The notes beneath the pieces are model-generated. The model saw nothing but the letters and a program-made list of their open reading frames with translations. It was not told the origin of the DNA and ran no database searches. A stretch of 64,000 bases of DNA from Comamonas denitrificans. GTDB lineage: Bacteria; Pseudomonadota; Gammaproteobacteria; Burkholderiales; Burkholderiaceae_C. A program made the translations under genes and the position numbers. Below, one piece after another: positions 10,729 to 36,745 of this stretch. The stretch covers positions 62,001 through 126,000 of the forward strand of contig NZ_JAFNME010000002.1 in the NCBI RefSeq assembly GCF_017368815.1. Direction: 5' to 3'. Every line of letters begins with the position of its first letter. Positions within the stretch are counted from its first letter, which is position 1.

Positions 10729-11511
10729 TTAGCCCTGGTCTCCGCCGCCCACGGGCAGCACGGTGCCAGTGATGTAGGAGGCATCGTCCGAGGCTAGGAA
10801 CAGGATCGGATCGGCTTGCTCGTCCAGTGTGCCGTAGCGCTTCATCAGGCTGCTGTCGACCGACTGGGTGTAGATCTGCTGGTACCAGGCTTTTTCCTGC
10901 TCGCACTGTGCCTGGGTGTTGCGCGGGATGAGACGCGGGGGTGCTTCGGTGGCACCGGGCGCGGTGGCATTGACGCGGATGCCGCGCTCGCCGTTTTCAA
11001 AGGCCAGGCAGGCGGTCAGGGCATTGACACCGCCCTTGGCCGCGCCGTAGGGCACGCGATTGATACCGCGCGTGGCGATGGACGAGACATTGACGATGCT
11101 CCCCTTGCCGTTGGTCAGCATGTGTGTGATGGCTGCGTGGCAGCACCACAGGGTGGGGAAGAGCGAGCGGCGCACTTCGGCCTCGATTTCCGCTTCTTGG
11201 TAGTGCTCGAAGGGCTTGGTCCAGATGGTGCCGCCGACGTTGTTGATAAGGATGTCGATGTGGCCAAACTTTTCCACGGCCGCGTTCATGATGCGCTGGC
11301 ATTCGGCAAACTTTTCTAGGTCGGCGGTCAGGCTGAGCACCTCTACCTTGGTGCTGCTGGCGATGTCTTTGGCCACGTCGTGAACCAGTTCTGAACGATC
11401 CACTAGCACCAGGGTGCCTTTTTCCTTGGCCATTTTTTCGGCCACGCGCTTGCCAATCCCTTGCGCGGCACCAGTGATGACGGCCACTTTTTTCTTGAAA
11501 CGGTTGCTCAT
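10729..11511 (-). CDS. benD: Benzoate diol dehydrogenase BenD
   Basis: BenD oxidises the cis-diol of benzoate (1,6-dihydroxycyclohexa-2,4-diene-1-carboxylate) to catechol with NAD+ and release of CO2. The 260-residue protein is a short-chain dehydrogenase with the cofactor motif TGAAQGIG near residue 13, NNVGG near 90, and the catalytic Ser...YGAAK near 155-159. The C-terminal region PRLIPRN...WYQQIYTQSVDSSLMKRYGT is typical of BenD/XylL. GGAG lies before the ATG. It is the last gene of the leftward benABC-porin-benD run and converges on ttrA, leaving an 81-bp gap without a clear terminator. Confidence 0.93.
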   Translation of the reverse strand: MSNRFKKKVAVITGAAQGIGKRVAEKMAKEKGTLVLVDRSELVHDVAKDIASSTKVEVLSLTADLEKFAECQRIMNAAVEKFGHIDILINNVGGTIWTKPFEHYQEAEIEAEVRRSLFPTLWCCHAAITHMLTNGKGSIVNVSSIATRGINRVPYGAAKGGVNALTACLAFENGERGIRVNATAPGATEAPPRLIPRNTQAQCEQEKAWYQQIYTQSVDSSLMKRYGTLDEQADPILFLASDDASYITGTVLPVGGGDQG

Positions 11512-11544: not shown

Positions 11545-12630
11545 TCAGAACGCGTGGCGCAGGCCGACCATCAGACCGGTCTGGTTGCGTCCGGCCAGTG
11601 GGGCCAGTGCCGTGTTGCTGGCCCCCACCGAGGGCGAGAAGCGGGCCTTGCCATCGTTGCGCATGAAGCCGAGCGTGGTGTAGGCCGCCGTGCGCTTGGA
11701 GAAGGCATAGGTGCCACGCAGCACCAGCATCTGGGCACCGTCGGTACTGTCTTTGTAGTCAAAGTCGTAGTACTGGGCTTCCAGCATCACGGCGGTGCTC
11801 AGGGGGTGGGACACGCCCAGTGACCACAGGGTGCTCTTGCGCTGGGCCTGGACGGCGGCTTCGTTCCTGCGCTGCATGTAGTTGGCGACCAGCTTGGTCT
11901 TGCCCAGCAGGACGTAGCCGTTCAGTGCCAAGCGGCGATCGGACTTGTCGCTCAGGTCGGCGCCACCGGCGGGGCGGTTGTCGCGCCCGTTCTGCTCATC
12001 GACCCAGGTGCCCACGCCCCAGGTGGGGGCATCGTATTTCAGCACGGCAGACCAGGAGCGGCACTCGCTGCTGTTGCTGCTTTCGCCCGCGCAGTTTTGC
12101 GCATCCTTGCCCAGGCTGTAGAGCACGCCGGCGGTGACTCCGCTGAATTTGCCCAGGTAGGCAATGGAGTTGTCCAGGCGCGGGCCGGCCAGGTAGGTAT
12201 CGAACGCACCGGCGCCGTAGATCTGCGCCAGGAAGATATCGGTATTGGCAGCGCCCGGGAACAGCATCGAATACTGGCGGCCCAGCGACAGCGTGCCCCA
12301 TTGGCCGGAGAGGCCGACAAACGCCTGGCGGCCGAAGGCGCGGCCCCCTTGCTGGGTTTCGCCGGTGTCTAGGCCAAAGCCCGATTCCAGGGTGAACACG
12401 GCCTTGAGGCCGTTGCCCAGGTCTTCGCTGCCACGCAGGCCCCAGCGCGAGGCGGCAGAGCCGGCAATGCTGGGCATCCGCGTGATGCTGCCGCCGGTGC
12501 TGGTGTTGTCCAGGCGTTCGATGCCGGTGTCCACCAGGCCGTAGAGGGTGACGTTCTGGGCCTGGGCGGAGGTGATGGCTCCGGCGCACAGGAGCAAGGT
12601 GGTCGTCAGGCTTGTAGCGATGCGTTGCAT
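11545..12630 (-). CDS. Gram-negative porin in the benzoate operon
   Basis: This is a predicted outer-membrane trimeric porin of the beta-proteobacterial Porin_4 type. The 361-residue product has a signal peptide ending in AQA (about residue 24). The mature start NVTLYGLVDTGIE and the SRWGLRGSEDLGNGLKAVFTLESGF pattern are typical, and the last residue is phenylalanine. It sits between benC and benD with short gaps (52 and 33 bp), so it is co-transcribed. This position suggests it helps benzoate cross the outer membrane. It is not related by sequence to BenF/OprD-type porins, so selectivity cannot be read from the sequence. Confidence 0.85.
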   Translation of the reverse strand: MQRIATSLTTTLLLCAGAITSAQAQNVTLYGLVDTGIERLDNTSTGGSITRMPSIAGSAASRWGLRGSEDLGNGLKAVFTLESGFGLDTGETQQGGRAFGRQAFVGLSGQWGTLSLGRQYSMLFPGAANTDIFLAQIYGAGAFDTYLAGPRLDNSIAYLGKFSGVTAGVLYSLGKDAQNCAGESSNSSECRSWSAVLKYDAPTWGVGTWVDEQNGRDNRPAGGADLSDKSDRRLALNGYVLLGKTKLVANYMQRRNEAAVQAQRKSTLWSLGVSHPLSTAVMLEAQYYDFDYKDSTDGAQMLVLRGTYAFSKRTAAYTTLGFMRNDGKARFSPSVGASNTALAPLAGRNQTGLMVGLRHAF

Positions 12631-12682: not shown

Positions 12683-13693
12683 TTAGACACTGGCAGCAAA
12701 TTTTTCGTAGTGAAAGCTGGCCGGTTCTATGGCCTGCGCACGCAGGTGCTGTGCCACGGCATCGACCATGGGCGGGGGGCCACACAGGTAGATATCGACG
12801 TTGCCGTGGTGCAATTGGGTCGGCTCCAGGTGGTGGGTGACGTAGCCTTTCTTAGGCCAGCGGCTGTCGTCGGCGACCACGCACACGGCGTAGCTGAAGT
12901 TGGGCAGGGCCGCTTTGAAGCTGTCCAGGCGCTCCAGGGCGACCACGTCGGCATCGGTGTTCACGCCGTAGATCAGGTGGATGGGCTGGTCGCTATCGCC
13001 TTGTGCGACCAGCTTGTCCAGCATTGACAGGAAAGGGGCCAGACCGGTGCCGCCCGCCAGCATCAGCACGGGGCGCACGACATCGCGCAGGTAGAAGCTG
13101 CCGATGGGGCCGGCCAGCTTGATGGTGTCACCGGGCTGGGTGCGACCGGTCAGGTAGCCACTCATCAGGCCGTCGGGCACGTTGCGAATCAGAAAGCTCA
13201 CCTTGCCATCGTGCGGCATAGAGCTGAAGGAATAGGCACGCGTTTGGGTGGTGCCGGGCACTTCCAGGTTGGCATATTGGCCGGGCAGGAAAGACAGTTT
13301 GTTCAGGCTGGGGCCTTGTAGCACCAGGCTGATGGTGCTGGGCGAGAGCTGGTGAACTGCTTCAATGGTGGCGGTCAGGGTGGCTTGCTTGATCTTGCAC
13401 ACCTCAGACGAGACGGGCACGTTCACCACGCAGTCGCTCTTGGGGAACATTTGGCAGGTGAGCACCTGGCCCAGGCGGGCTTCTTCCTCGCTCATGGCAT
13501 CTTCAATGTAGAAGCCCAGTTCGTATTGGCCCGATTCGGCCTGGCATTTGCAAGCGCCACACGCGCCATCGCGGCAGTCGATGGGCACATTGACACCCTG
13601 GCGGTAGGCGGCATCGGCCACCGTTTCCGTAGCATTGCAGTCGATGAAGCGGGTTACGCCGTCCTCGAAGTTCAGGGCGATTTTGAAAGTCAT
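12683..13693 (-). CDS. benC: Benzoate 1,2-dioxygenase electron transfer component BenC
   Basis: BenC is the NADH:ferredoxin reductase that feeds electrons to the BenAB oxygenase. The 336-residue protein has an N-terminal plant-type [2Fe-2S] ferredoxin domain (CRDGACGACKC near residue 40 and a fourth cysteine in VLTCQ). Next come an FAD-binding domain (RAYSFSS) and an NAD domain (GGTGLAPFLSML). The start chosen is the ATG at 13693, giving MTFKIALNFEDG, because GGAG lies just before it and the family starts here; the frame is open upstream to 13774 but that part is not conserved. The last residues match the BenC/XylZ family. Confidence 0.95.
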   Translation of the reverse strand: MTFKIALNFEDGVTRFIDCNATETVADAAYRQGVNVPIDCRDGACGACKCQAESGQYELGFYIEDAMSEEEARLGQVLTCQMFPKSDCVVNVPVSSEVCKIKQATLTATIEAVHQLSPSTISLVLQGPSLNKLSFLPGQYANLEVPGTTQTRAYSFSSMPHDGKVSFLIRNVPDGLMSGYLTGRTQPGDTIKLAGPIGSFYLRDVVRPVLMLAGGTGLAPFLSMLDKLVAQGDSDQPIHLIYGVNTDADVVALERLDSFKAALPNFSYAVCVVADDSRWPKKGYVTHHLEPTQLHHGNVDIYLCGPPPMVDAVAQHLRAQAIEPASFHYEKFAASV

Positions 13694-13759
13694 GTTCGTC
13701 TCCAAGAGGGAAAACCGGCCCGCACCACGCCTTTTGAAATCAGGGGGCGCAGGCCGCAT

Positions 13760-13783
13760 GGCGGCCCGCTTCAAGGGGCCGCC
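13760..13783 (-). other. GC-rich intercistronic hairpin between benB and benC
   Basis: Two perfect 8-bp arms (GGCGGCCC at 13760-13767, GGGCCGCC at 13776-13783) flank an 8-nt loop in the 120-bp benB-benC gap. There is no T-run, so it is more likely an mRNA-stability or processing element than a terminator. Confidence 0.45.
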
Positions 13784-13813: not shown

Positions 13814-14302
13814 CTAGATGTGGTACACGTCCAGAACGTGGCGAACGTAGTCGGTCTTGAGGACCACTTTCTTGTCCTGAATGATGGGCTGCTCGCCAGT
13901 CACGTCCAGGGTGTAGAAGCTGGTGCCACAGAAGTGGTCGGTGTGGTTGTAGCGCACGCTCATGGTGTGCCAGTTAAAGCGCAGCTTGACGGTTTTGTCG
14001 TCCTGCTCCAGCACCTCGATGTTGCTGATGTGGTGGTTGGTGCGGGTGTCCGGGATGGTGGCGCTGGAGCGCTCGGTGCGGATGCGAAACACTCGGTCTT
14101 CCAGCCCGGCGCGGCGGCCGTACCAGATGAGCGAGATTTCGCTTTGCGGGTCTTCGGTCAGCTCGCCATCGTCATCCCAGGCAGGCACCCAGAAGGTGCA
14201 GTTTTCAGCGTACAGGGCCAGCCAGCTGTCCCAATCGCGCTCGTCCAGGTAGCGGGCTTCGCGGTACAGGAAGGCGCACAGGTTTTCGTAAGAAATCGAC
14301 AT
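13814..14302 (-). CDS. benB: Benzoate 1,2-dioxygenase small (beta) subunit BenB
   Basis: This is the beta subunit of the ring-hydroxylating oxygenase, with a structural role in the alpha3beta3 hexamer. The 162-residue protein has the SnoaL-like cone fold sequence of BenB/XylY. It starts YENLCAFLYREARYLDERDWDSWLALYAENCTFWVP and ends in LKTDYVRHVLDVYHI. Length is normal. It starts 26 bp after the benA stop with an appropriate ribosome site and is followed by benC. Confidence 0.95.
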   Translation of the reverse strand: MSISYENLCAFLYREARYLDERDWDSWLALYAENCTFWVPAWDDDGELTEDPQSEISLIWYGRRAGLEDRVFRIRTERSSATIPDTRTNHHISNIEVLEQDDKTVKLRFNWHTMSVRYNHTDHFCGTSFYTLDVTGEQPIIQDKKVVLKTDYVRHVLDVYHI

Positions 14303-14328: not shown

Positions 14329-15681
14329 TTACTGGGCGGCAGATTCGTCAGACTCGGCAGCAATGGCGGCACGCATTTGCTCCAGCCAGTAGCTGTGCTG
14401 GGCCACGTAGAGGCCTTCGTCTTCGGTCTTGACACCCGACAGGATGGGCTTGAGGCCGATCTTGTCGGCTTCGGCATCGGGGCCTTCCACCCAATGCTCG
14501 GCACCACGTGACATGTCGTTCCACTCCAGCGCCCGGCCCATGAAGCCTTCTTGGCAGGCGCGGAATTCTTCCAGGTCGTCCGGCGTGGCCATGCCAGTGG
14601 CGTTAAAGAAGTCTTCGTACTGGCGAATGCGGTGGGCGCGTGCTTCGGCCGATTCGCCCTTGGGAGCGATGCAGTAGATGGTGACTTCCGTGCGATCGAC
14701 GGACAGCGGGCGGAACACGCGGATTTGCGAGCTGAACTGGTCCATCAGGTACACGTTGGGGTACACGCACAGGTTGCGCGAGTTGTTGATCATCCACTCG
14801 GCCTTGGCTTCGCCGAATTCCTTGACCAAGCGCTCGCGCTGCTCCATCAGCGGGCGGTCTTCGGGGTTGTCCCAGCGCGTCCACAGCAGCAGGTGGCCGT
14901 TCTCGAACGAGTAGGAGCCGCCGCCCTTTTTGGCCCAGCCGCCCGCGCTCATGGCGTTGATGTCGTCGCCGCTGTCGCGGCTCTTGCGCTGTGCTTGCGT
15001 GGCGGCGTAGTTCCAGTGCGTGGCGGTGACGTGGTAGCCATCGGCACCGTTTTCGGCCTGCAGTTTCCAGTTGCCTTCGTACACGTACGAGGAAGAGCCG
15101 CGCAGCACTTCCAGGCCTTCGGGTGACTGGTTCACGATCATGTCGATGATGACCTTGGACTCACCCAGAAAGTCTTCCAGCGATTGCACGTCCGGGTTCA
15201 GGCTGGCAAACAGAAAACCGCGGTAGGACGCAAAGCGTGCGACTTTTTTCAGGTCGTGCGAGCCTTCGCAATTAAAGCTGGCGGGGTAGCCGGTTTCGGT
15301 GGGGTCTTTGATCTTGAGCAGCTTGCCCGAGTTGTTGAACGTCCAGCCGTGGAAGGGGCAGGTGAAACTGCCCTTGTTGCCATGCTTGAAGCGCGTGAGC
15401 GTGGCGCCCCGGTGTGCACAAGAGTTGATGAAGCAGTTGAGCTGGTTGTCCTTGTTGCGCGTGATGAAGACCGGCTGGCGACCAATTTTGGTGGTGTAGT
15501 AATCGTTGATCTTGGGCAGCTGGCTCTCGTGGGCCAAATACACCCAGTTGCCTTCAAAGATGTGTTTCATCTCCAACTCGAACAACTCTGAGCTGGTGAA
15601 CATTTCGCGTTTGCAGCGGAATTTGCCTTTGGCTTTGTCTTTCTCGAGCAGTGAGTCGAGATATTCCTTGGTGATGCCCAT
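14329..15681 (-). CDS. benA: Benzoate 1,2-dioxygenase large (alpha) subunit BenA
   Basis: This is the catalytic subunit of benzoate dioxygenase, which adds both atoms of O2 to benzoate to give the cis-diol. In the 450-residue protein the Rieske [2Fe-2S] site is [11 protein letters not shown]...CPFHGW (cysteines near 87 and 107). The mononuclear iron site is [10 protein letters not shown] near residue 215, with the HX4H pair. Length matches BenA/XylX. The start ATG has AAGGAG upstream. It is the first gene of the leftward operon, with a predicted -10 (TACCAT, 15720-15725) and two BenR-type boxes (15747-15783) directly upstream. Confidence 0.96.
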
Positions 15682-15898
15682 GGTCGCGGTCTCCTTGTTT
15701 CTGGTGGTATGGAGCGGTCATGGTAGGCGGGGGAAAAGTTGCTAAATATCCGTTTTCTGCACGATAACTATCCGTTCTGTGCAGAAATTGCGGTTTTGCA
15801 TGAAATGGATACGAGTTGTGCAGGAACTGGATATTCCGCTGGGACAGGGTGCCCCTAACCTACGCCTGCAATACCAACAACGTTAGGAGACACACCCC
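15682..15898. promoter_or_regulatory. Divergent ben promoter region with four XylS/BenR-type boxes
   Basis: XylS-family regulators bind paired direct repeats TGCA-N6-GGNTA. Four exact matches occur here. Two read leftward toward benA (15747-15761 and 15769-15783 on the minus strand). Two read rightward toward the transporter operon (15797-15811 and 15819-15833 on the plus strand). Within each pair the repeats are 22 bp apart. The leftward pair is followed after 21 nt by TACCAT (15720-15725). The rightward pair is followed after 22 nt by TAACCT (15856-15861). This spacing resembles the XylS-activated Pm promoter. Both operons should respond to the BenR-like protein encoded at 23729-24739. Confidence 0.85.
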
Positions 15899-17059
15899 AT
15901 GGCATTCAAACTGAAGACCACTGCACTACTCACATTGGCCTGCTTGGCCAGCGCAGCCCACGCGGTCAGCGACAAGGTCAAAGTGGGCCTGATGCTGCCC
16001 TACACCGGCACCTACGCCGCACTGGGCACGGCCATGACCAATGGCTTTAAGCAGTACGTGGAAGAAAACGGCGGCAAGCTGGGCGGCCGCGAGGTGGAAT
16101 ACGCCGTGGTGGACGACGAGTCCAACCCGGCCAAGGCCACCGAGAATGCCAAAAAGCTGGTCTCGCGCGAGAAGGTGGATGTGCTGGTCGGCACGGCCCA
16201 CTCGGGCGTGGCACTGGCCATGGCCAAGGTGGCGCGTGACAGCAAGACGATCATGATCGTCTCCAACGCAGGGGCCAACGATCTGACCGGATCGCTGTGC
16301 TCACCCTACATCTTCCGTTCGTCGTTCTCGGCCTGGCAGCCGTCCTACGCCATGGGCGAGGCACTGGCCAAAAAGGGACTGAAGAACATCGCCACCGTGA
16401 CCTGGAAATACTCTTTCGGCGAGGAATCGGTGGCAGGTTTCAAGGAAGCCTTTGAAAAAGGTGGCGGCAAGGTGGTCAAGGAGATGACCCTACCCTTCCC
16501 GAACGTGGAGTTTCAGCCCTTCCTGACCGAGATTGCCTCGCTCAAGCCCGATGCGGTGTTTGTCTTCTTTGCGGGTGCGGGTGCGGCCAAGTTTGTCAGC
16601 GACTACGCGGCAGCCGGCCTGAAGAGCAGCATCCCGCTGTACGGCCCCGGCTTCCTGACCGATGGCAACCTGGATGCCATGGGCGCAGCGGGCGAGGGTC
16701 TGCTGACCACGCTGCACTACGCTGACGGCCTGACCAACGAGAAGGATGTGGCCTTCCGCTCCAAGTACGTCGCCAAATACAAGATGCAGCCCGACGTGTA
16801 CGCCATGCAGGGCTACGACGCGGCGCAGATGTACGAAGCCGGCCTGCGTGCTGCTGCTGGCGACCCGGCCAAAAAAGACGTGGTCATCAAGGGCATGGAG
16901 TCGGCCACCATCGACAGCCCACGCGGCAAGTTCACCCTGTCGCGCGCGCATAACCCGGTGCAGGACATCTACATGCGCCAGGTCAAGAGCGGCGGCAACA
17001 TCATGCTGGAAGTGGTATCCCCAAAGCTGGAAGACCCGGCACGCGGCTGCAAGCTGTAA
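15899..17059 (+). CDS. ABC transporter substrate-binding protein, probable benzoate binding
   Basis: This is a periplasmic binding protein of the branched-chain amino acid/aromatic acid (HAAT) family. The 386-residue product has a signal peptide (cleavage after AHA, about residue 22). It follows with VKVGLMLPYTGTYAALG, the typical start of the Peripla_BP_6 fold. TTAGGAGA lies 9 nt before the ATG. It is the first gene of the rightward operon and is driven by the BenR-box promoter it shares with benA, so the ligand is probably benzoate or a close aromatic acid. Family members bind either amino acids or aromatic carboxylates, so ligand identity is inferred from context. Confidence 0.85.
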   Translation: MAFKLKTTALLTLACLASAAHAVSDKVKVGLMLPYTGTYAALGTAMTNGFKQYVEENGGKLGGREVEYAVVDDESNPAKATENAKKLVSREKVDVLVGTAHSGVALAMAKVARDSKTIMIVSNAGANDLTGSLCSPYIFRSSFSAWQPSYAMGEALAKKGLKNIATVTWKYSFGEESVAGFKEAFEKGGGKVVKEMTLPFPNVEFQPFLTEIASLKPDAVFVFFAGAGAAKFVSDYAAAGLKSSIPLYGPGFLTDGNLDAMGAAGEGLLTTLHYADGLTNEKDVAFRSKYVAKYKMQPDVYAMQGYDAAQMYEAGLRAAAGDPAKKDVVIKGMESATIDSPRGKFTLSRAHNPVQDIYMRQVKSGGNIMLEVVSPKLEDPARGCKL

Positions 17060-17106
17060 GCCACTGGCTTTCTCTCCACACCTTTAATACCTAAAGTTTT
17101 TGTCGC

Positions 17107-17130
17107 CCCGGCAGGCTGCGCCCTGCCGGG
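17107..17130 (+). other. Intercistronic hairpin after the binding-protein gene
   Basis: A perfect 9-bp stem (CCCGGCAGG at 17107-17115 with CCTGCCGGG at 17122-17130) and 6-nt loop lie between the binding-protein and permease genes, without a T-run. Such hairpins commonly protect the upstream mRNA so that the binding protein is made in excess over the permeases. Confidence 0.55.
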
Positions 17131-17142
17131 CGGGGGATAGTC

Positions 17143-18009
17143 ATGGATTTCGCAAACTTCCTGATCCAGACGCTGAACTCGCTGCAGTACGGTTTGCTAC
17201 TTTTCTTGGTGGCAAGCGGGCTGACGCTGGTGTTCGGCATCATGGGGATCATCAATCTGGCGCACGGTAGCTTCTACATGATCGGCGCTTACCTGGCTTT
17301 TGTGCTGACCAGCGCCACGGGCAGCCTTGTCATGGCCATGGTGCTGGGCATACCGCTGGCACTGATTTTTGGCGCTTTTCTGGAGTGGGCGCTGTTCTCG
17401 CACCTGTACAAGCGTGACCATCTGGAACAAGTGCTGCTGACCTACGGCTTGATTCTGATTTTTGAACAGCTGCGCAGCCTGTTGGTGGGCGACGATGTGC
17501 ATGGGGTGGCCATTCCGGCCTTCTTGGATGCCTCCATCCCGCTGACAGAGGTGTTGAGCTACCCGGTCTATCGCCTGGCCATCTCGCTGGTGTGCATCGT
17601 GCTGGCTGTGGCTTTGTACTACCTGATTCGGCGCACTCGCCTGGGCATGATGATCCGGGCTGGGAACGACGACCGGGGCATGGTCGAGTCACTGGGCATC
17701 AACATCGACATGATTTACCGCGTGGTGTTTGCGCTGGGCGTGGCCATGGCTGCACTGGCGGGGATGCTGGCTGCGCCGATTTCTTCCGTCTTCCCCAATA
17801 TGGGCAGCCATGTGCTGATCATTTCGTTTGTGATCGTGGTCATCGGTGGCATCGGCTCGATCTGGGGCGCTTTGGTGGCAGCGCTGATCGTCGGGTTTGC
17901 CGACACCTTCGGCAAAGTGCTGATTCCCGAATTCTCGGGCATCGTGGTCTATGTGGTGATGGCGGTGGTGCTGCTCTGGCGCCCCGAAGGCATCCTGAAG
18001 AAAGGTTGA
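17143..18009 (+). CDS. Branched-chain-type ABC permease (LivH family)
   Basis: This is an inner-membrane permease subunit of the importer. The 288-residue protein has about eight hydrophobic segments and the family signatures LNSLQYGLLLFLVASGLTLVFGIMGIINLAHGSFYMIGAY near the N-terminus and GGIGSIWGALVAALIVG near the C-terminus. It starts 83 bp after the binding-protein stop and is separated from the next permease by 4 bp, so the genes are translationally coupled. It should pair with the LivM-type protein to move benzoate or a related acid. Confidence 0.9.
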   Translation: MDFANFLIQTLNSLQYGLLLFLVASGLTLVFGIMGIINLAHGSFYMIGAYLAFVLTSATGSLVMAMVLGIPLALIFGAFLEWALFSHLYKRDHLEQVLLTYGLILIFEQLRSLLVGDDVHGVAIPAFLDASIPLTEVLSYPVYRLAISLVCIVLAVALYYLIRRTRLGMMIRAGNDDRGMVESLGINIDMIYRVVFALGVAMAALAGMLAAPISSVFPNMGSHVLIISFVIVVIGGIGSIWGALVAALIVGFADTFGKVLIPEFSGIVVYVVMAVVLLWRPEGILKKG

Positions 18010-18013
18010 TGCC

Positions 18014-18982
18014 ATGAAAAACATACACGCTTCGCTGATCGTCAAACTGCTCGCCCTGGCCGCCATTGCCTGCGTGCCGCTGTCGGGAGAATCCTTCTAC
18101 ATCGAGATCATCGGCAAGGTGCTGATCATGGCCATCTTCGCCATGAGTCTGGACCTGCTGGTGGGCTTTACCGGTTTGGTCAGCTTTGGCCATGCGGCCT
18201 ATTTCGGCATTGCGGCCTACGCCGCCGCGCTGCTGACCGTGCGCTATGAAACGGCCAACCTGTGGCTGGCCCTGCCCGCCTCGGTCGCAATCGCTGCCTT
18301 GGCAGCCCTGGTGATTGGCCTGTTTGTGCTACGCACCAAGGGCATCTACTTCATCATGGTGACGCTGGCCTTTGCACAGATGGCGTACTTCATCTTCCAC
18401 GACACGCCGCTGGGCGGTGGCTCGGACGGGATGTATCTGAGCAACAAGCCTTCAACGTCCATCTTCGGCTGGGAACCCTTTGACCTCAACAACGAGGTGC
18501 ACATGTTCTATTTCATCCTGGGGATGCTGGTGCTGGTGTACCTCTTCCTGCACCGCGTGTTGCAGTCGCCCTTTGGCCGTGTGCTGATTGGCATCAAAAG
18601 CAACGAACACCGGATGCAGTCACTGGGCTACACCACCTTTCGCTACAAGTTGGGGGCCTTTACGCTGGCCGGTGCCCTGGGGGGACTGGCCGGTTTCCTG
18701 TACGCCGCGCTGCTGGGCTTTGTTACGCCGGAGCTGCTGTCCTGGCATGAGTCGGGCAACGTGTTGATGATGGTAATCCTGGGGGGCATGGGCAACCTGG
18801 GCGGGGCCATCGTCGGGGCCTTTGCCCTGGAAGCCATGCGCGAAATCTTTACCGATCTGACCAAATACTGGCAACTGTTGCTGGGTGGGGTGATTGTGGG
18901 CGTGGTGCTGTTCCTGCCCGGCGGTCTGTCCGGTGTGCCAGGCCGCATCCAGCGTGCCCTGCAAGGGGGAGAAGCCAAATGA
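18014..18982 (+). CDS. Branched-chain-type ABC permease (LivM family)
   Basis: This is the second permease subunit, 322 residues, with the LivM signatures MSLDLLVGFTGLVSFGHAAYFGIAAY near residue 40 and GGMGNLGGAIVGAFALEA near 258. Hydrophobic segments alternate with short loops as expected for an inner-membrane protein. The stop overlaps the ATG of the following ATPase gene by four bases (ATGA), showing tight coupling. As with its neighbours, the aromatic-acid substrate is deduced from the shared promoter with benA. Confidence 0.9.
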   Translation: MKNIHASLIVKLLALAAIACVPLSGESFYIEIIGKVLIMAIFAMSLDLLVGFTGLVSFGHAAYFGIAAYAAALLTVRYETANLWLALPASVAIAALAALVIGLFVLRTKGIYFIMVTLAFAQMAYFIFHDTPLGGGSDGMYLSNKPSTSIFGWEPFDLNNEVHMFYFILGMLVLVYLFLHRVLQSPFGRVLIGIKSNEHRMQSLGYTTFRYKLGAFTLAGALGGLAGFLYAALLGFVTPELLSWHESGNVLMMVILGGMGNLGGAIVGAFALEAMREIFTDLTKYWQLLLGGVIVGVVLFLPGGLSGVPGRIQRALQGGEAK

Positions 18983-19755
18983 GCACGAATGCAAGCCAAG
19001 AAGTGTTGCTCCAAGCAACCAAACTGACGCGCCGCTTTGGCGGGCTGGTGGCCAACCAAGACCTGGATGTGACGCTGGAACGCGGCATGATCCATGTGCT
19101 GCTCGGCCCCAACGGGGCGGGCAAATCGACCTGCATCAACATGCTCTCGGGCGATCTGCCGCCCAGCGAGGGCAAGATCGAGTTCATGGGCCGCGACATC
19201 ACGCACCTGACGGCCGCACAACGCTCGCAGGTCGGTATCGGGCGCAGCTACCAGCGCACCAACATCTTCCCGCAGTTCACCGTGCTGGAGAACGTGCGCC
19301 TGGCCGCGCAGTCGCGCCGCCAGCAGCCCTGGCGCATTTTCAGTAAGGCCATGCAGCAGCAGTGGGCGCTGGAAAAAGCACGCGCCTGCATCGAAGAGGC
19401 TGGTCTCGGCAAGCGCGTGGACTGGGTCTCAGGGGTGCTGAGCCACGGCGAGCAGCGTCAGCTGGAAATCGCCATGGTGCTGGCCACCGATGCGCAGGTG
19501 CTGCTGCTCGATGAACCGCTGGCGGGCATGGGCTCGGAAGAATCGGCGAGCATGGTCGAGGTGCTCAAACGCCTGCGAAAGACACGTGGCATCCTGCTCG
19601 TCGAGCACGACATGGATGCCGTGTTTGCCGTGGCCGACATGATCACCGTGATGGTCAACGGTCTGTTGCTCGAATGCGGGCCACCGGCACAAATCAAGGC
19701 CAGCGTGGCCGTGCAACAGGCCTATCTGGGGACGGAGGAGAGTTTCCATGTCTAA
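18979..19755 (+). CDS. ABC transporter ATP-binding protein (LivG family)
   Basis: This is a cytoplasmic ATPase of the importer. The 258-residue product has Walker A GPNGAGKST near residue 43 and the region VGIGRSYQRTNIFPQFTVLENV that contains the Q-loop. The signature is LSHGEQRQLEIAM, with Walker B LLLDEPLAGMG. It overlaps the preceding permease by 4 bp and the following ATPase gene by 8 bp. With the LivF-type protein it forms the ATPase dimer. Confidence 0.92.
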   Translation: MSTNASQEVLLQATKLTRRFGGLVANQDLDVTLERGMIHVLLGPNGAGKSTCINMLSGDLPPSEGKIEFMGRDITHLTAAQRSQVGIGRSYQRTNIFPQFTVLENVRLAAQSRRQQPWRIFSKAMQQQWALEKARACIEEAGLGKRVDWVSGVLSHGEQRQLEIAMVLATDAQVLLLDEPLAGMGSEESASMVEVLKRLRKTRGILLVEHDMDAVFAVADMITVMVNGLLLECGPPAQIKASVAVQQAYLGTEESFHV

Positions 19756-20461
19756 CATGCTGCTTGAAGCCAAGGAAATCCACACCTACTACGGTGCCAG
19801 CCACATCCTGCACGGCATCGACTTCCACATCCGCGAAGGCGAGGGCATTGCCCTGATGGGGCGCAACGGCATGGGCAAGTCCACGCTCATCAAGAGCATG
19901 CTGGGCGTGGTGCGTCCGCGCCATGGCCGCGTGCTGGTGCGTGGCGATGATCGCAGCAAGGCGCGCACCTACCAGATCGCCCAGCAAGGGATTGCCTATG
20001 TGCCCGAGGGGCGCGGCATTTTCAAGAGCCTGACCGTGCGTGAAAACCTGCAGATGTCGGCCCGTGCCGGTGTCGATGGGCGGCGCGAGTGGACATTTGA
20101 CCGCGTGATGGCCACCTTCCCGCGCCTGGGCGAGCGCATCAACAACGGCGGCTGGCAGCTGTCAGGTGGCGAGCAGCAAATGCTCACCATTGGCCGGGCG
20201 CTGATGACCAATCCCGACCTGCTGATTCTGGACGAGGCCACCGAGGGCCTGGCCCCGCTGATCGCCATGGAGATCTGGCGCATCATCAAAGAGATCCGCA
20301 AGACCGGCATCGCCACCGTGATCGTGGACAAAAACCATGGCGCGGTCACCAGCATCTGCGACCGGGCAATGATTCTGGTGAAAGGCCAGATCGTGTTTGA
20401 CGGCACCAGCGCCGAGGTGCAGAACAATCCCACCCTGATTCAAACCCACCTCGGGGTCTGA
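19748..20461 (+). CDS. ABC transporter ATP-binding protein (LivF family)
   Basis: This is the second ATPase of the importer, 237 residues. It has Walker A GRNGMGKST near residue 38, the LivF-typical YVPEGRGIFKSLTVRENL region, the signature LSGGEQQML and Walker B LLILDEATEGLAP. The ATG at 19748 overlaps the end of the LivG-type gene; a second in-frame ATG lies at 19757. It is followed 27 bp later by a hemerythrin-like gene with its own AAGGAG ribosome site. Confidence 0.92.
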   Translation: MSNMLLEAKEIHTYYGASHILHGIDFHIREGEGIALMGRNGMGKSTLIKSMLGVVRPRHGRVLVRGDDRSKARTYQIAQQGIAYVPEGRGIFKSLTVRENLQMSARAGVDGRREWTFDRVMATFPRLGERINNGGWQLSGGEQQMLTIGRALMTNPDLLILDEATEGLAPLIAMEIWRIIKEIRKTGIATVIVDKNHGAVTSICDRAMILVKGQIVFDGTSAEVQNNPTLIQTHLGV

Positions 20462-20488: not shown

Positions 20489-21067
20489 ATGCAATACAAA
20501 GCCCTGGACATGATTCACGATGAGCACCGGGCGCTGGCCGCCATGCTCAACGGTATGCGCACCATCGCCACCGGCATCCGGGACGGACGGATGAAAGTGG
20601 ACTTTGCGCTCTACGCCGCCATGATTCGCTACATGGAGGAAGTGCCCGAAAAGCTCCACCACCCCAAGGAAAACGAATACCTGTTTGCTCTGCTGCGCCT
20701 GCGCACCGATGCGGCCAACCCCATCCTCGCGCGGCTGGAAGCCGAGCACCAAGCCGGCGGCAAACGCATCCACGCCCTGCGCACAGCGCTGGAAAGCTAC
20801 CAAACGGCGGGTGAGGCCGGCTTTGCGGCGTTCTTTGCCGCCCTCAACGACTACGTGGCCGATGAGTGGCAGCACATGAACACCGAAGAGCACGAAATCT
20901 TCCCCCTGGCACGCCAGCACCTGCTGCCAGAAGACTGGGCGGCGATTGAGGCCGCCTTTCTGGCCAACGACAACCCGTGGCAGGGAAAGCGCGGGGAATA
21001 CGAGGCGCTTTTTTCGCAAATTGTGAACACGGCACCGGCCCCCGTCGGCCTAGGAGGATCGGTGTGA
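20489..21067 (+). CDS. Hemerythrin HHE cation-binding domain protein in the benzoate operon
   Basis: Hemerythrin-like four-helix bundles bind a diiron centre and can hold O2, sense it or manage iron. The 192-residue product starts LDMIHDEHRALAAML, with a His-x-x-x-Glu-His-like first helix. It continues with KLHHPKENEYLF and ends in DEWQHMNTEEHEIFPLARQHL, the pattern of HHE proteins. It is read from the transporter operon: 27 bp after the second ATPase, with AAGGAG upstream, and its TGA overlaps the GTG start of a second hemerythrin. Being under the BenR-box promoter suggests a role tied to benzoate oxidation, perhaps supplying O2 or iron to BenAB. That role is inference. Confidence 0.85.
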   Translation: MQYKALDMIHDEHRALAAMLNGMRTIATGIRDGRMKVDFALYAAMIRYMEEVPEKLHHPKENEYLFALLRLRTDAANPILARLEAEHQAGGKRIHALRTALESYQTAGEAGFAAFFAALNDYVADEWQHMNTEEHEIFPLARQHLLPEDWAAIEAAFLANDNPWQGKRGEYEALFSQIVNTAPAPVGLGGSV

Positions 21068-21519
21068 ATACGGCACTGCCAGCACCCTTCGCCTGGGACG
21101 ATGGCTATTTGGTCGGGCACAGCGCCATGGACGACACCCACCGAGAATTCGTGGAATGCCTGAACGCTGTGCTGCAAGCCCCGGACGATGGCTTGCTCGC
21201 CGCCCTCGATGCCTTTGCTGCCCATGCACAAGCGCATTTCGACGAGGAAGACCACTGGATGCGCAGCACCAACTTCCCACCGGCCGACTGCCACCTGGAT
21301 GAGCACGCCAAGGTGCTGGCCTCGGTCAGCGCCGTGCGCGAAGCCCTGCGCGAAGACCCGGAGGGCAATGCGGCCTGGTGCCGGGAACTGGCCCAGGCCT
21401 TGCAGGACTGGTTCCCAAGCCATGTCCAACACCTGGACTCGGCCCTGGCCACCTGGCTGGTGCACCGCACCCACGGTGGGCGGCCGCTGGTGTTGCGGCG
21501 CAAATCGGTCTGCGCCTAA
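21064..21519 (+). CDS. Bacteriohemerythrin-type protein in the benzoate operon
   Basis: This 151-residue protein belongs to the single-domain bacteriohemerythrin family. The iron ligands appear in order: H in AMDDTHREFV, H and E in AHFDEEDHWM, H in DCHLDEH, and H plus D near SHVQHLDSALATWL. The start is the GTG at 21064, four bases into the end of the preceding gene (GTGA overlap), with TAGGAGG upstream. No ATG gives a conserved start. It resembles the third hemerythrin of this window (36287-36745). Together with its HHE neighbour it separates the ABC importer from benE. The expected activity is reversible O2 binding; the link to benzoate dioxygenation is a hypothesis from context. Confidence 0.87.
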   Translation: MNTALPAPFAWDDGYLVGHSAMDDTHREFVECLNAVLQAPDDGLLAALDAFAAHAQAHFDEEDHWMRSTNFPPADCHLDEHAKVLASVSAVREALREDPEGNAAWCRELAQALQDWFPSHVQHLDSALATWLVHRTHGGRPLVLRRKSVCA

Positions 21520-21529
21520 AGTGCCCCCT

Positions 21530-22702
21530 ATGTCCTGGACGCGCGACGTTTCCGTGTCGGCACTGACGGCGGGTTTTCTGGCCGTCCTGATCTCCTACTC
21601 CGGGCCGCTGCTGATCTTCTTTCAGGCCGGGCAATCGGCGGGCGTGTCGCCCGCGATGATGGCCTCCTGGGTCTGGGGCATCTCGATTGGCGCGGCCATC
21701 TCGGGCATCGTCTTGAGCTGGTGGCTCAGGGTGCCCGTGGTCACGGCCTGGTCGGCCCCTGGCACGGCGCTGCTGATCACGCTGTTCCCGGACATCAATA
21801 TCCACCAGGCCGTCGGGGCGTATCTGGTGGCGGGTGCCATCTTGCTGGCGATTGGCTTGTCCGGCAGCTTTGACTGGCTGATGCAGCGCATCCCCAAAGG
21901 CATCGCCTTCGGCATGATGGCCGGCATCCTGTTCCAGTTTGGTACCGGGGCCTTCAAGCCAGCCGCCAGCATGCCGTTGCTGACTTTCGGAATGGTGCTG
22001 GCCTACCTGCTGTGGAAACGCTTGTTCCCACGCTACTTCCTCGTGCTGGTGCTGCTCACCGGGGTGGCCTTGAGTGCAATCAGCACCGGCGGCCTGGCGG
22101 TGGGCGAGATTGACCTGTCACCCACCTGGCCTATCTTCATCGCACCCGAATGGCATGGCGGAGCCATCCTCAGCCTGGCACTGCCACTGGTGCTGGTCAG
22201 CCTGACCGGGCAGTTTCTACCCGGCATGGCCATTTTGCGCGGTGCGGGCTACACCACCCCGGCCAAACCCATCGTGGCCATTACCAGCCTGGCATCGCTG
22301 GGCGTGGCGATGGTGGGGGGGATCAGCATCGTGATTGCTGCCATCACCGCCGCCCTGTGTACCGGCAAGGAAGCCCACGATGACCCGAGCAAACGCTATA
22401 TCGCCGGGATTGCCAACGGCGTGTTCTACCTGGTGGGCGGCTGCTTCAGTGGTGCCATCATCGGGCTGTTTGCGGCCCTGCCTGCCGCCTTCATCGCCGT
22501 GCTGGCCGGTCTGGCGCTGCTGGGGGCCATTGCTGCCAACCTGGCGGGCACCCTGGCCGAGGCCGACCAGCGCGAGGCCGCCGTCATCACCTTTGTCGCC
22601 ACCGCCTCCGGCATGAGTTGGCTGGGCCTGGGTTCGGCCTTCTGGGGCATCGTCATCGGCCTGGTGGCCCACTTTCTCTTGCGCCCCCGGCATAAACAGT
22701 AG
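21530..22702 (+). CDS. benE: Benzoate/H+ symporter BenE
   Basis: BenE is an inner-membrane secondary transporter that brings in benzoate with protons. The 390-residue protein has about twelve hydrophobic segments and the family signatures GFLAVLISYSGPLLIFFQA near the N-terminus and VVTAWSAPGTALL near residue 70. The ATG at 21530 is chosen, 10 bp after the second hemerythrin stop; the frame is open upstream but overlaps that gene. The operon therefore encodes both an ATP-dependent and a proton-driven uptake system for the same probable substrate. Confidence 0.94.
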   Translation: MSWTRDVSVSALTAGFLAVLISYSGPLLIFFQAGQSAGVSPAMMASWVWGISIGAAISGIVLSWWLRVPVVTAWSAPGTALLITLFPDINIHQAVGAYLVAGAILLAIGLSGSFDWLMQRIPKGIAFGMMAGILFQFGTGAFKPAASMPLLTFGMVLAYLLWKRLFPRYFLVLVLLTGVALSAISTGGLAVGEIDLSPTWPIFIAPEWHGGAILSLALPLVLVSLTGQFLPGMAILRGAGYTTPAKPIVAITSLASLGVAMVGGISIVIAAITAALCTGKEAHDDPSKRYIAGIANGVFYLVGGCFSGAIIGLFAALPAAFIAVLAGLALLGAIAANLAGTLAEADQREAAVITFVATASGMSWLGLGSAFWGIVIGLVAHFLLRPRHKQ

Positions 22703-23728: not shown

Positions 23729-24739
23729 CTAGCGCTGCTTGAGCACCTCGGAAGGCAGGCGGCCAAACGTCTCGCGGTAGGTTTCGGCAAAGCGGCCCAG
23801 GTGGGTAAAACCGTACTCCAGTGCCAACGCAGTGATGTTGGCGAACTGGCTGCCCGGATCCATCAGCGCGTTGTGCACGGCCTGCAGTTTTCTTTGCCGA
23901 ATGAAGTGCTTGGGCGTGGTTTTGGCGTGCCGCTCGAACAGGTGGTAGATCGACCGTGTGCTCATGCGTGCCTGGGCAGCCAGGTTTTCCACGCACAGGT
24001 CGCTCGTGATGTTTTCGTCGATGTAATGCACCAGGCGCTCAAAGGAGACATCCAGCAGCGCTGGCTTTTCCAATGACACGTTGTGGTTCAGCATGGTCAT
24101 CAACTTGGTGGCGATCACGCGGCTGTAATGGTTGAGCAGCTGCGGCTGGAGGCTCTCGGCCTCCGCTTCGGCCTCCTGGCAGATCAGGGTGAGCAGGTAC
24201 AGCAGGCTTTCAAGGGAATCAAACCGGTAGGGCATGGGTTGGAAGCGAATGCCCTCCTGGGGGGGGTGCCACTGGTGCTCGGTGCAGGTGTTGTGTAGCA
24301 GGTGCGTGGGCAGGCGCAAGATAAATTTTTCGCAATCCTCGGAATACGTCAGATCAACCGGGTCATCGGGGTTAATGAGCATCAACTGCCCCGCCGACAG
24401 GTTGATGCTGTCATGGCCCAGCTCGTAACGGCACTGACCGCGCAAAATGAATTGCAGGTGGTAGATGTCGTGCAACCGCTCTGAAACAATCCGCGCCTGG
24501 CTGCCATAGGCCAGGCGGCACAGGTCGATGTTGCCAAACTTGCGGTGGGCCAAAGCGGCTTTGCCACTCCCCCCCCGTTGCAGACTCAGGCCATGGTTGC
24601 CGACATGCTCATTGACATATTCCGACACGGCAAAAGGATCTGCTTGGTGAAAAACCGTGCTCGTCTCTTTCAGGAACGAGAAGCAGCGAATGGGTCGGCT
24701 GGCGCACGAGGAGGCGGGCGCAATAGAGATCGTTTGCAT
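23729..24739 (-). CDS. benR: AraC/XylS family regulator, probable BenR
   Basis: This is a predicted benzoate-responsive activator of the ben operons. The 336-residue protein has an N-terminal AraC-binding-like sensor region (residues about 30-210). A C-terminal AraC domain carries two helix-turn-helix units: LAAQARMSTRSIYHLFERHAKTTP and ITALALEYGFTHLGRFAETYRETFG. The size and layout match BenR/XylS. It sits at the right end of the benzoate island, and four boxes of the XylS type occur in the ben promoter. It may also control its own gene: a palindrome overlapping its ribosome site lies just upstream. The symbol is assigned from context plus family. Confidence 0.78.
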   Translation of the reverse strand: MQTISIAPASSCASRPIRCFSFLKETSTVFHQADPFAVSEYVNEHVGNHGLSLQRGGSGKAALAHRKFGNIDLCRLAYGSQARIVSERLHDIYHLQFILRGQCRYELGHDSINLSAGQLMLINPDDPVDLTYSEDCEKFILRLPTHLLHNTCTEHQWHPPQEGIRFQPMPYRFDSLESLLYLLTLICQEAEAEAESLQPQLLNHYSRVIATKLMTMLNHNVSLEKPALLDVSFERLVHYIDENITSDLCVENLAAQARMSTRSIYHLFERHAKTTPKHFIRQRKLQAVHNALMDPGSQFANITALALEYGFTHLGRFAETYRETFGRLPSEVLKQR

Positions 24740-36286: not shown

Positions 36287-36745
36287 TTAGTGGCAACCGC
36301 AACCTGTGCTGGCCGCTGCTGGGGTGGGCGCGGCCGCCACGGGCTGGGCATGGATGTCAAACCCGGTGCTTTGCAGGTGGTAAACCAAGGCGGCATCCAT
36401 GGTTTTGGCGTGGTAGCTGAACCAGTGGGCCAAGTCGGGAATCATCGCCCGGATGGCGGCCAGATCGCCTTGCGCCCCTTTGGCCGCGCCGTCGCGCAGG
36501 ATGTCCAGCACCGCTTGGTGTTGGTGAAAGTGGCAGTTGTCCGGGGCAAAACCGGTGGCCAGCATCCAGCGGTTTTCCATGGCGAAGTGCTCCTCGGTGT
36601 GGCTGACGATGGTGTGCCACAGCGCCAGCAAGGCGGCATCGTCGGCGCTTTCGGCGTGGGTGAGTAAATCGACAAATTCACGGTGGACGGTGTCCAGCTC
36701 TGGTAAGTCCAGCTGCAGTTTGTCGTCCCATTGCAAGGTGGCCAT
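36287..36745 (-). CDS. Bacteriohemerythrin-type protein
   Basis: This is a single-domain oxygen- or iron-binding protein, 152 residues. Ligand residues appear in LDTVHREFVDLL, HTEEHFAMENRWM, DNCHFHQH and SYHAKTMDAALV. It is a paralog of the benzoate-operon protein at 21064-21519. The tail is unusual: after a proline/alanine linker it ends STGCGCH, adding two cysteines and a histidine that could bind a metal. It lies between the lipid ABC operon and the dienelactone hydrolase-like gene on the same strand. The function is inferred from family. Confidence 0.85.
   Translation of the reverse strand: MATLQWDDKLQLDLPELDTVHREFVDLLTHAESADDAALLALWHTIVSHTEEHFAMENRWMLATGFAPDNCHFHQHQAVLDILRDGAAKGAQGDLAAIRAMIPDLAHWFSYHAKTMDAALVYHLQSTGFDIHAQPVAAAPTPAAASTGCGCH

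Follow-up and report, generated by a model that had tools for sequence, protein, structure and literature searches.

Hemerythrin-like genes have already been described in benzoate catabolism. According to Suvorova and Gelfand (2019; PMC6449761), a COG3945 HHE gene belongs to BenR and BoxR regulons: Dechloromonas aromatica and Thauera sp. MZ1T have a BenR-controlled divergon that sets benABCD against a benzoate ABC importer operon including this gene, and, among the genomes studied there, the benzoate clusters of Rhodocyclales and of Rhodoferax ferrireducens contain HHE genes as well. The relevant passages of that paper call the role of HHE unclear, possibly protection or an oxygen store or scavenger; the link between HHE and the benzoate regulon, and the guess of an oxygen-related function, are thus already known. 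In another pathway, the bacteriohemerythrin of Methylococcus capsulatus reportedly provides particulate methane monooxygenase (pMMO) with O2 in vitro (PMC12607906). Here, we analyzed a 64,000-nucleotide stretch of Comamonas denitrificans DNA (contig NZ_JAFNME010000002.1, positions 62,001 to 126,000; hereafter the window), from a 3.0 Mb genome with 11 hemerythrin-domain matches. In this window, what appears to be a BenR-type divergon carries benABC in one direction and, in the other, a predicted benzoate importer, two putative diiron proteins of the hemerythrin fold, and benE. The two proteins are:

20489..21067, plus strand: HHE, a COG3945-like HHE-domain (hemerythrin) protein of 192 aa (PF01814, 63.7 bits)
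21064..21519, plus strand: BHr, a bacteriohemerythrin-type protein of 151 aa with a GTG start (PF01814, 43.2 bits; TIGR02481, 81.4 bits)

Both are single-domain proteins and exceed the PF01814 gathering cut-off of 25.3. Their genes overlap by 4 bases (21064-21067), an AGGAGG motif (21052-21057) lies upstream of the BHr start, and coordinates and family matches bear out the initial annotation, which had placed two overlapping hemerythrin-like genes between an ABC importer and benE. That annotation knew of no description of the gene set, a claim that is wrong for HHE given the regulon study cited above. The arrangement resembles the published one in its divergent benABCD and importer operon with HHE, here under predicted BenR control; it differs in that the passages concerned mention neither a second, O2-type bacteriohemerythrin nor a Rieske context beyond ben. 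For these two features, we found no description in the literature searched, subscription papers (e.g., Gescher 2002) being outside its scope. Our preferred explanation, to which we assign a probability of roughly 0.4, is that BHr may act as an O2 buffer and HHE as a protective diiron protein for oxygenase-based catabolism.

BHr and its Rieske-domain neighbors

Seven BHr residues, which we take by comparison with hemerythrin structures to be the diiron ligands (H26, H58, E62, H77, H81, H120, and D125), are invariant in 18 aligned BHr sequences; so are the Cys of the CHxxEH motif and, in the C-terminal tail, a GG-x-P. These residues amount to the ligand set of the O2-binding hemerythrin site, that is, five His, one Glu, and one Asp (as outlined in PMC9388753). 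The structure model of BHr (pLDDT 93.7) has its best fold matches among O2-binding hemerythrins, DcrH-Hr and the M. capsulatus protein (PDB 4xpx). With the latter, BHr shares the fold, the full diiron ligand set, and an O2-consuming oxygenase as proposed partner; it differs by a sequence that is 18% identical in the structural alignment, by a C-terminal tail of GG-x-P-V type, and by the nature of the proposed partner, as the neighbors of BHr are Rieske enzymes, which are soluble, whereas that of the M. capsulatus protein is a membrane copper enzyme. Among family models, BHr exceeds the cut-off of TIGR02481 (51.75 bits) and falls below that of the NF002522 (PRK01917) equivalog (122 bits, cut-off 162).

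A profile of the 18 BHr sequences, run against 399 family genomes, returned 49 places that score at least 162 bits, the next matches scoring 134 and below; all 49 reach at least position 139 of 145. In the phylogenetic tree, which is built on few columns, has many open forks, and leaves out locus L224, 17 lower-tier sequences form one group (support 100/97). By this bit-score gap and tree support, BHr belongs to a subfamily distinct from other bacteriohemerythrins. The window BHr falls into a clade with the BHr of other HHE pairs (96/96) and the benM-linked BHr into another (99/91); because ben-linked BHr are split between two separate clades, BHr most simply entered ben clusters on at least two occasions. 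In L224 (genome G032), the BHr next to a Rieske gene, at about 9782, has stops in its frame and looks decayed, and intact copies are found in other genomes. The window itself contains a further bacteriohemerythrin-type gene (36287-36745, minus strand; NF002522, 120.5 bits), 34% identical to BHr over the match.

The subfamily recurs beside genes for Rieske-domain proteins. In a first test, PF00355 was found within 10 kb in 11 of 19 upper-tier places, window included (1.16 expected from gene density), and in 1 of 22 lower-tier places from 17 other genomes (0.78 expected); distances were read by hand among the matches listed, one list reaching down to about 61 bits, and G129 (L231) was admitted because the tail is covered by its match, a criterion chosen with the BHr matches already known. 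A replicate on new places, with a single detector for both groups, gave 17/23 for BHr and 2/17 for controls (Fisher p = 1.2e-4). When the first set was rescored with a local hidden Markov model (HMM), the count was 9/17, the same nine loci; because this HMM was built from ten first-set Rieske domains and BenA, only the replicate is independent of it. Combined over Comamonadaceae, a Rieske-domain gene lies within 10 kb of BHr in 26 of 40 loci versus 2 of 17 for other bacteriohemerythrins, the 40 being the 49 places minus the window, seven benM-linked places, and G063 (L216, on a 3.7-kb contig). Searches by tblastn with four Rieske queries agree (24/40 vs. 0/17), and so do counts after clustering at 70% identity (17/24 BHr clusters, from 39 upper-tier loci, vs. 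1/11 control clusters; L224, with its broken frame, enters the Rieske test and not the clusters). All three control matches (one from the first test, two from the replicate) come from one genus, g34, the replicate two being 32-bit matches. Within 2.5 kb of BHr, Rieske genes occur in 14 of 26 loci versus 8.2 if placed at random in the stretch. None of seven other catabolic genes was significantly enriched near BHr, though these genes, each searched with one query, are a weak control. Because the seven ligands are kept and the subfamily recurs in this setting, an O2-related role of BHr in ring oxygenation is plausible.

HHE and aromatic-acid importers

HHE is of another kind. It has one invariant histidine (H87) at the place of the H-x3-H pair of O2 carriers. 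Its residues 10-141 align with the C-terminal domain of YtfE and it has no counterpart of the YtfE N-terminal domain; with 24.7 bits against RIC/YtfE TIGR03652 (cut-off 204.7), far below the RIC and YtfE cut-offs, a function as iron-sulphur repair protein was rejected. HHE is more likely to be a protective diiron protein, handling reactive oxygen species (ROS) such as peroxide or nitric oxide (NO), than an O2 carrier. A paralogue 39% identical to it is encoded 2.1 kb past the window end (contig 128096-128662).

Scanning genome contigs with three HHE sequences gave 174 relatives, the best 80 of which were compared. In 66 of these 80, livF ends 18-123 nt before the HHE match, and the neighbors (tblastn, at least 45% identity, family names taken from representatives) belong to several aromatic pathways: benA or benB in 8/80, catechol 2,3-dioxygenase in 14/80 (some overlapping ben), 3-hydroxybenzoate 6-monooxygenase together with gentisate dioxygenase in 15/80, gentisate dioxygenase alone in one, and the protocatechuate 4,5-dioxygenase beta subunit in six, plus L118, in which HHE is not directly preceded by livF. 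The pathways of these importer clusters all use O2. Because HHE follows importers of several pathways, it is not tied to BenAB, and we rejected it as a partner of benA. Compared with PMC6449761, as far as its passages go, the importer clusters for 3-hydroxybenzoate and protocatechuate are additional settings for HHE.

The closest importer loci (substrate-binding protein, SBP, more than 70% identical) were collected through HHE, so that 66/80 does not measure how frequent HHE is among them. More distant importers (SBP 53-70% identical) were found in 47 places besides the window, of which 26 were taken (the 20 best and the 6 weakest); leaving out L307, too short, and L309, with no importer ATPases, HHE was behind livF in none of the 24 usable loci, and the idea that the importer is always accompanied by HHE was rejected for this group. 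One of them, L303, carries a match to HHE upstream of SBP and in the same orientation, and L177 combines ben and a distant-type importer with no hemerythrin nearby. In L115, two HHE genes surround one importer, one before SBP and one behind livF. On plasmids, HHE relatives occur in 26 records, all below 60% identity; none of three examined is of ben type, one of Azospirillum oryzae carrying an importer followed by HHE in a 3-hydroxybenzoate cluster. A plasmid search with BenA matched 113 records.

BHr matches at 1.5 kb or less from HHE occur in 12/80 loci, in 11 of them directly downstream on the same strand; L062, in which BHr is 3.6 kb behind, is left out. These 11 are found among 28 ben-type importer loci (livF at least 82% identical), of which L046 and L070 are on contigs that end just behind HHE. 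HHE and BHr part ways in the comparison, the former going with importers and the latter with Rieske-domain genes. The pairs come mostly from Thauera, with others in Comamonas, Zoogloea, Azoarcus, Azonexus, and an Oxalobacteraceae metagenome-assembled genome, and several of these genera include denitrifiers. This distribution would suit a scenario in which the hemerythrins report O2 to partners choosing between aerobic and anaerobic benzoate use. So would the HHE relatives that occur near ccoNOP and an FtrB-type gene, of the Crp family. HHE and BHr are nevertheless both devoid of a signalling domain, with no kinase seen adjoining, and we consider such a sensing switch very unlikely. Of the 14 HHE loci lacking livF, 10 are near ccoN and ccoP (cbb3 oxidase) and a polyhydroxyalkanoate (PHA) synthase gene, again an oxygen context, which counts in favor of the explanation preferred here; the loci of cbb3/PHA type are L093, L105, L108, L110, L112, L113, L114, L116, L119, and L121.

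Possible oxygen buffering and its alternatives

O2 is a substrate that aromatic ring oxygenases require, and facultative bacteria have to provide it even in sediments and sludge, where little is present. In the explanation that we favor, BHr would bind O2 reversibly in the cytoplasm. Induced with the pathway, it would, under scarce or fluctuating O2, buffer the gas or pass it to the ring-attacking oxygenases, BenAB and then those of catechol cleavage. HHE, deployed upon import, would protect against peroxide or NO, or otherwise serve aromatic-acid import. The breaking of aromatic rings may in this way be served by a small oxygen buffer or safety device in the cell. The initial annotation had suggested a local oxygen supply, or an oxygen check, for ring dioxygenation. 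Ligands and Rieske neighbors make an O2-related role plausible for BHr; HHE is a companion of importers and not of BenAB. The other suggestion of that annotation, a local iron supply for BenAB, was dropped: both proteins are single-domain, and nothing was observed in favor of it. In a broader and rather doubtful version, the BHr subfamily would serve Rieske-oxygenase catabolism as a dedicated O2 buffer, in both Comamonadaceae and Rhodocyclales; it would have been repeatedly recruited to benzoate and other oxygenase clusters, be paired in ben with an importer-linked hemerythrin, and form a soluble counterpart of the hemerythrin-pMMO partnership. If true, O2 handling would become a genetically testable part of pollutant degradation, extending the proposal made for methane oxidation.

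The recurrence of hemerythrins near benA, expected in Comamonadaceae from the initial annotation, was partly found. BenA was detected (TIGR03229, E-value at most 1e-150) in 12/399 genomes of an order draw, 13/53 of the genus, and 36/399 of a family draw; besides the window, 56 places were taken (11 from other families, 12 from the genus, 33 from the family), with up to about 10 kb on each side and some stretches cut by contig ends. Of the 45 Comamonadaceae places, 9 gave a match to a hemerythrin HMM at up to about 10 kb from benA; none of the 11 from the order's other families did. Many of the 45 score under the TIGR03229 cut-off (L136, at 504 bits, was counted, and five family places at 548-563 bits were left out). 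The exact set of genes occurs rarely (1/45): the full HHE-BHr-importer set is near benA in L139, and L140 has ben and the importer on a contig that ends before the spot. In seven places, the benM-linked ones (L152, L155, L160, L162, L166, L170, and L171), BHr stands beside benABCD and a gene assigned to the LysR type from its sequence; in L172, two more distant hemerythrin matches score 48.9 and 23.6 bits, at 6-8 kb. In L170, muconate cycloisomerase (447 bits, above its cut-off) comes first, followed by a gene of 78 aa, a catechol 1,2-dioxygenase-like gene (355.7 bits against a cut-off of 392), BHr, the LysR-type gene, benABCD, and benE. In L152, L155, L160, L162, and L166, all of one genus, a long gene on the other side of BHr resembles, by eye only, a Lon-like protease.

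Several observations weigh against oxygen buffering by BHr. Most benA places have no hemerythrin nearby (36/45 in the family, 11/11 outside), and a Rieske domain within 10 kb is lacking in 14 of the 40 BHr loci. BHr scores 70.7 bits with NF033749, the NCBIfam bacteriohemerythrin model (cut-off 84), and its bacteriohemerythrin-type classification follows its ligands and predicted fold, not this model. In a methanotroph, overexpressed Bhr aided respiration and not methane oxidation (cited in PMC12607906). Finally, genes for Bug uptake receptors are also enriched near BHr (20/40 vs. 2/17) and are as close as Rieske genes (within 2.5 kb in 13/20 loci vs. 7.5 if random), so that BHr may be linked to catabolic islands at large. 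The hemerythrins could then be accessory passengers of such islands, with no role specific to the pathway, a view consistent with BHr following HHE in only 11/28 ben-type importer loci, with the absence of HHE behind livF in the more distant importer loci, and with L177. However, the recurrence of HHE directly behind livF across four pathway types, the overlap of the two genes, the invariance of the ligands, and the entry of BHr into ben from two clades all speak for selection; we consider passengers an unlikely explanation.

The main rival keeps a function for both proteins and makes it protective: they would remove peroxide or NO, or shield BenC and the Rieske centre from the ROS of uncoupled turnover, with no supply of O2. 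Uncoupled Rieske turnover does release ROS (PMC9502038), and protection agrees with the probable nature of HHE; the complete O2-site ligand set of BHr points rather to O2 binding and, possibly, O2 delivery, and shared protection seems to us somewhat unlikely.

The divergon and its predicted regulation

The genes and sites flanking the hemerythrin pair are the following:

12683..13774, minus strand: benC (NF040810, 536 bits, cut-off 430)
13814..14302, minus strand: benB (TIGR03232, 281.5 bits, cut-off 225.55)
14329..15681, minus strand: benA, benzoate 1,2-dioxygenase large subunit (TIGR03229, 878.3 bits, cut-off 780.95)
15747-15761 and 15769-15783, minus strand: two BenR-type sites facing benA (exact TGCA-N6-GGNTA)
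15797-15811 and 15819-15833, plus strand: two BenR-type sites facing the importer-hemerythrin operon (exact TGCA-N6-GGNTA)
15899..17059, plus strand: SBP of the ABC importer (PF13458, 275.8 bits)
17143-18009, 18014-18982, 18979-19755, and 19748-20461, plus strand: importer genes of LivH, LivM, LivG, and LivF type
21530..22702, plus strand: benE, benzoate/H+ symporter (TIGR00843, 466.8 bits, cut-off 203.4)
23729..24739, minus strand: AraC/XylS-type regulator, candidate BenR (PF14525 and PF12833)

The order is therefore benC-benB-benA on the minus strand, then SBP, LivH, LivM, LivG, LivF, HHE, BHr, and benE on the plus strand, the Liv types being assigned from the reading frames and from synteny in relatives. 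The importer (15899-20461) is separated from HHE by 27 nt and BHr from benE by 10 nt; 3' of benE come a membrane-transport gene and the AraC-type gene.

The four sites between benA and the importer (15747-15833) are mirrored, two in each direction, with a 22-bp spacing in each pair, and match the BenR consensus TGCA-N6-GGNTA given in PMC6449761; a fifth exact site is at 15856, and the whole window has 7 matches versus 1.65 expected. The four-site array also occurs in L042, L051, L074, and L082, and in part in L052 and L059, in a comparison in which many of the 80 HHE loci end before any benA. The AraC-type gene has AndR as its nearest NCBIfam model (116.7 bits, below the cut-off of 350); it may encode BenR, which would control the importer-hemerythrin operon. 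Regulation in common with benzoate dioxygenase, which the initial annotation had placed under one promoter, is supported by the four sites, and importer, HHE, BHr, and benE are probably transcribed as one unit. Between 15600 and 23000, a scan for sigma-70-like promoters was uninformative (a single match, inside benE at 22110, vs. 1.6 expected), and nine weak terminator-like hairpins, one inside livF at 20374, compare with 6.0 in shuffled sequences.

Within the ben run, benC is separated by a porin gene (11545-12630, minus strand) from a benD-like gene (10729-11511), so called from its position and from tblastn in relatives. In Comamonas sp. STD2_78 (L042), benC adjoins benD with no porin gene between them.
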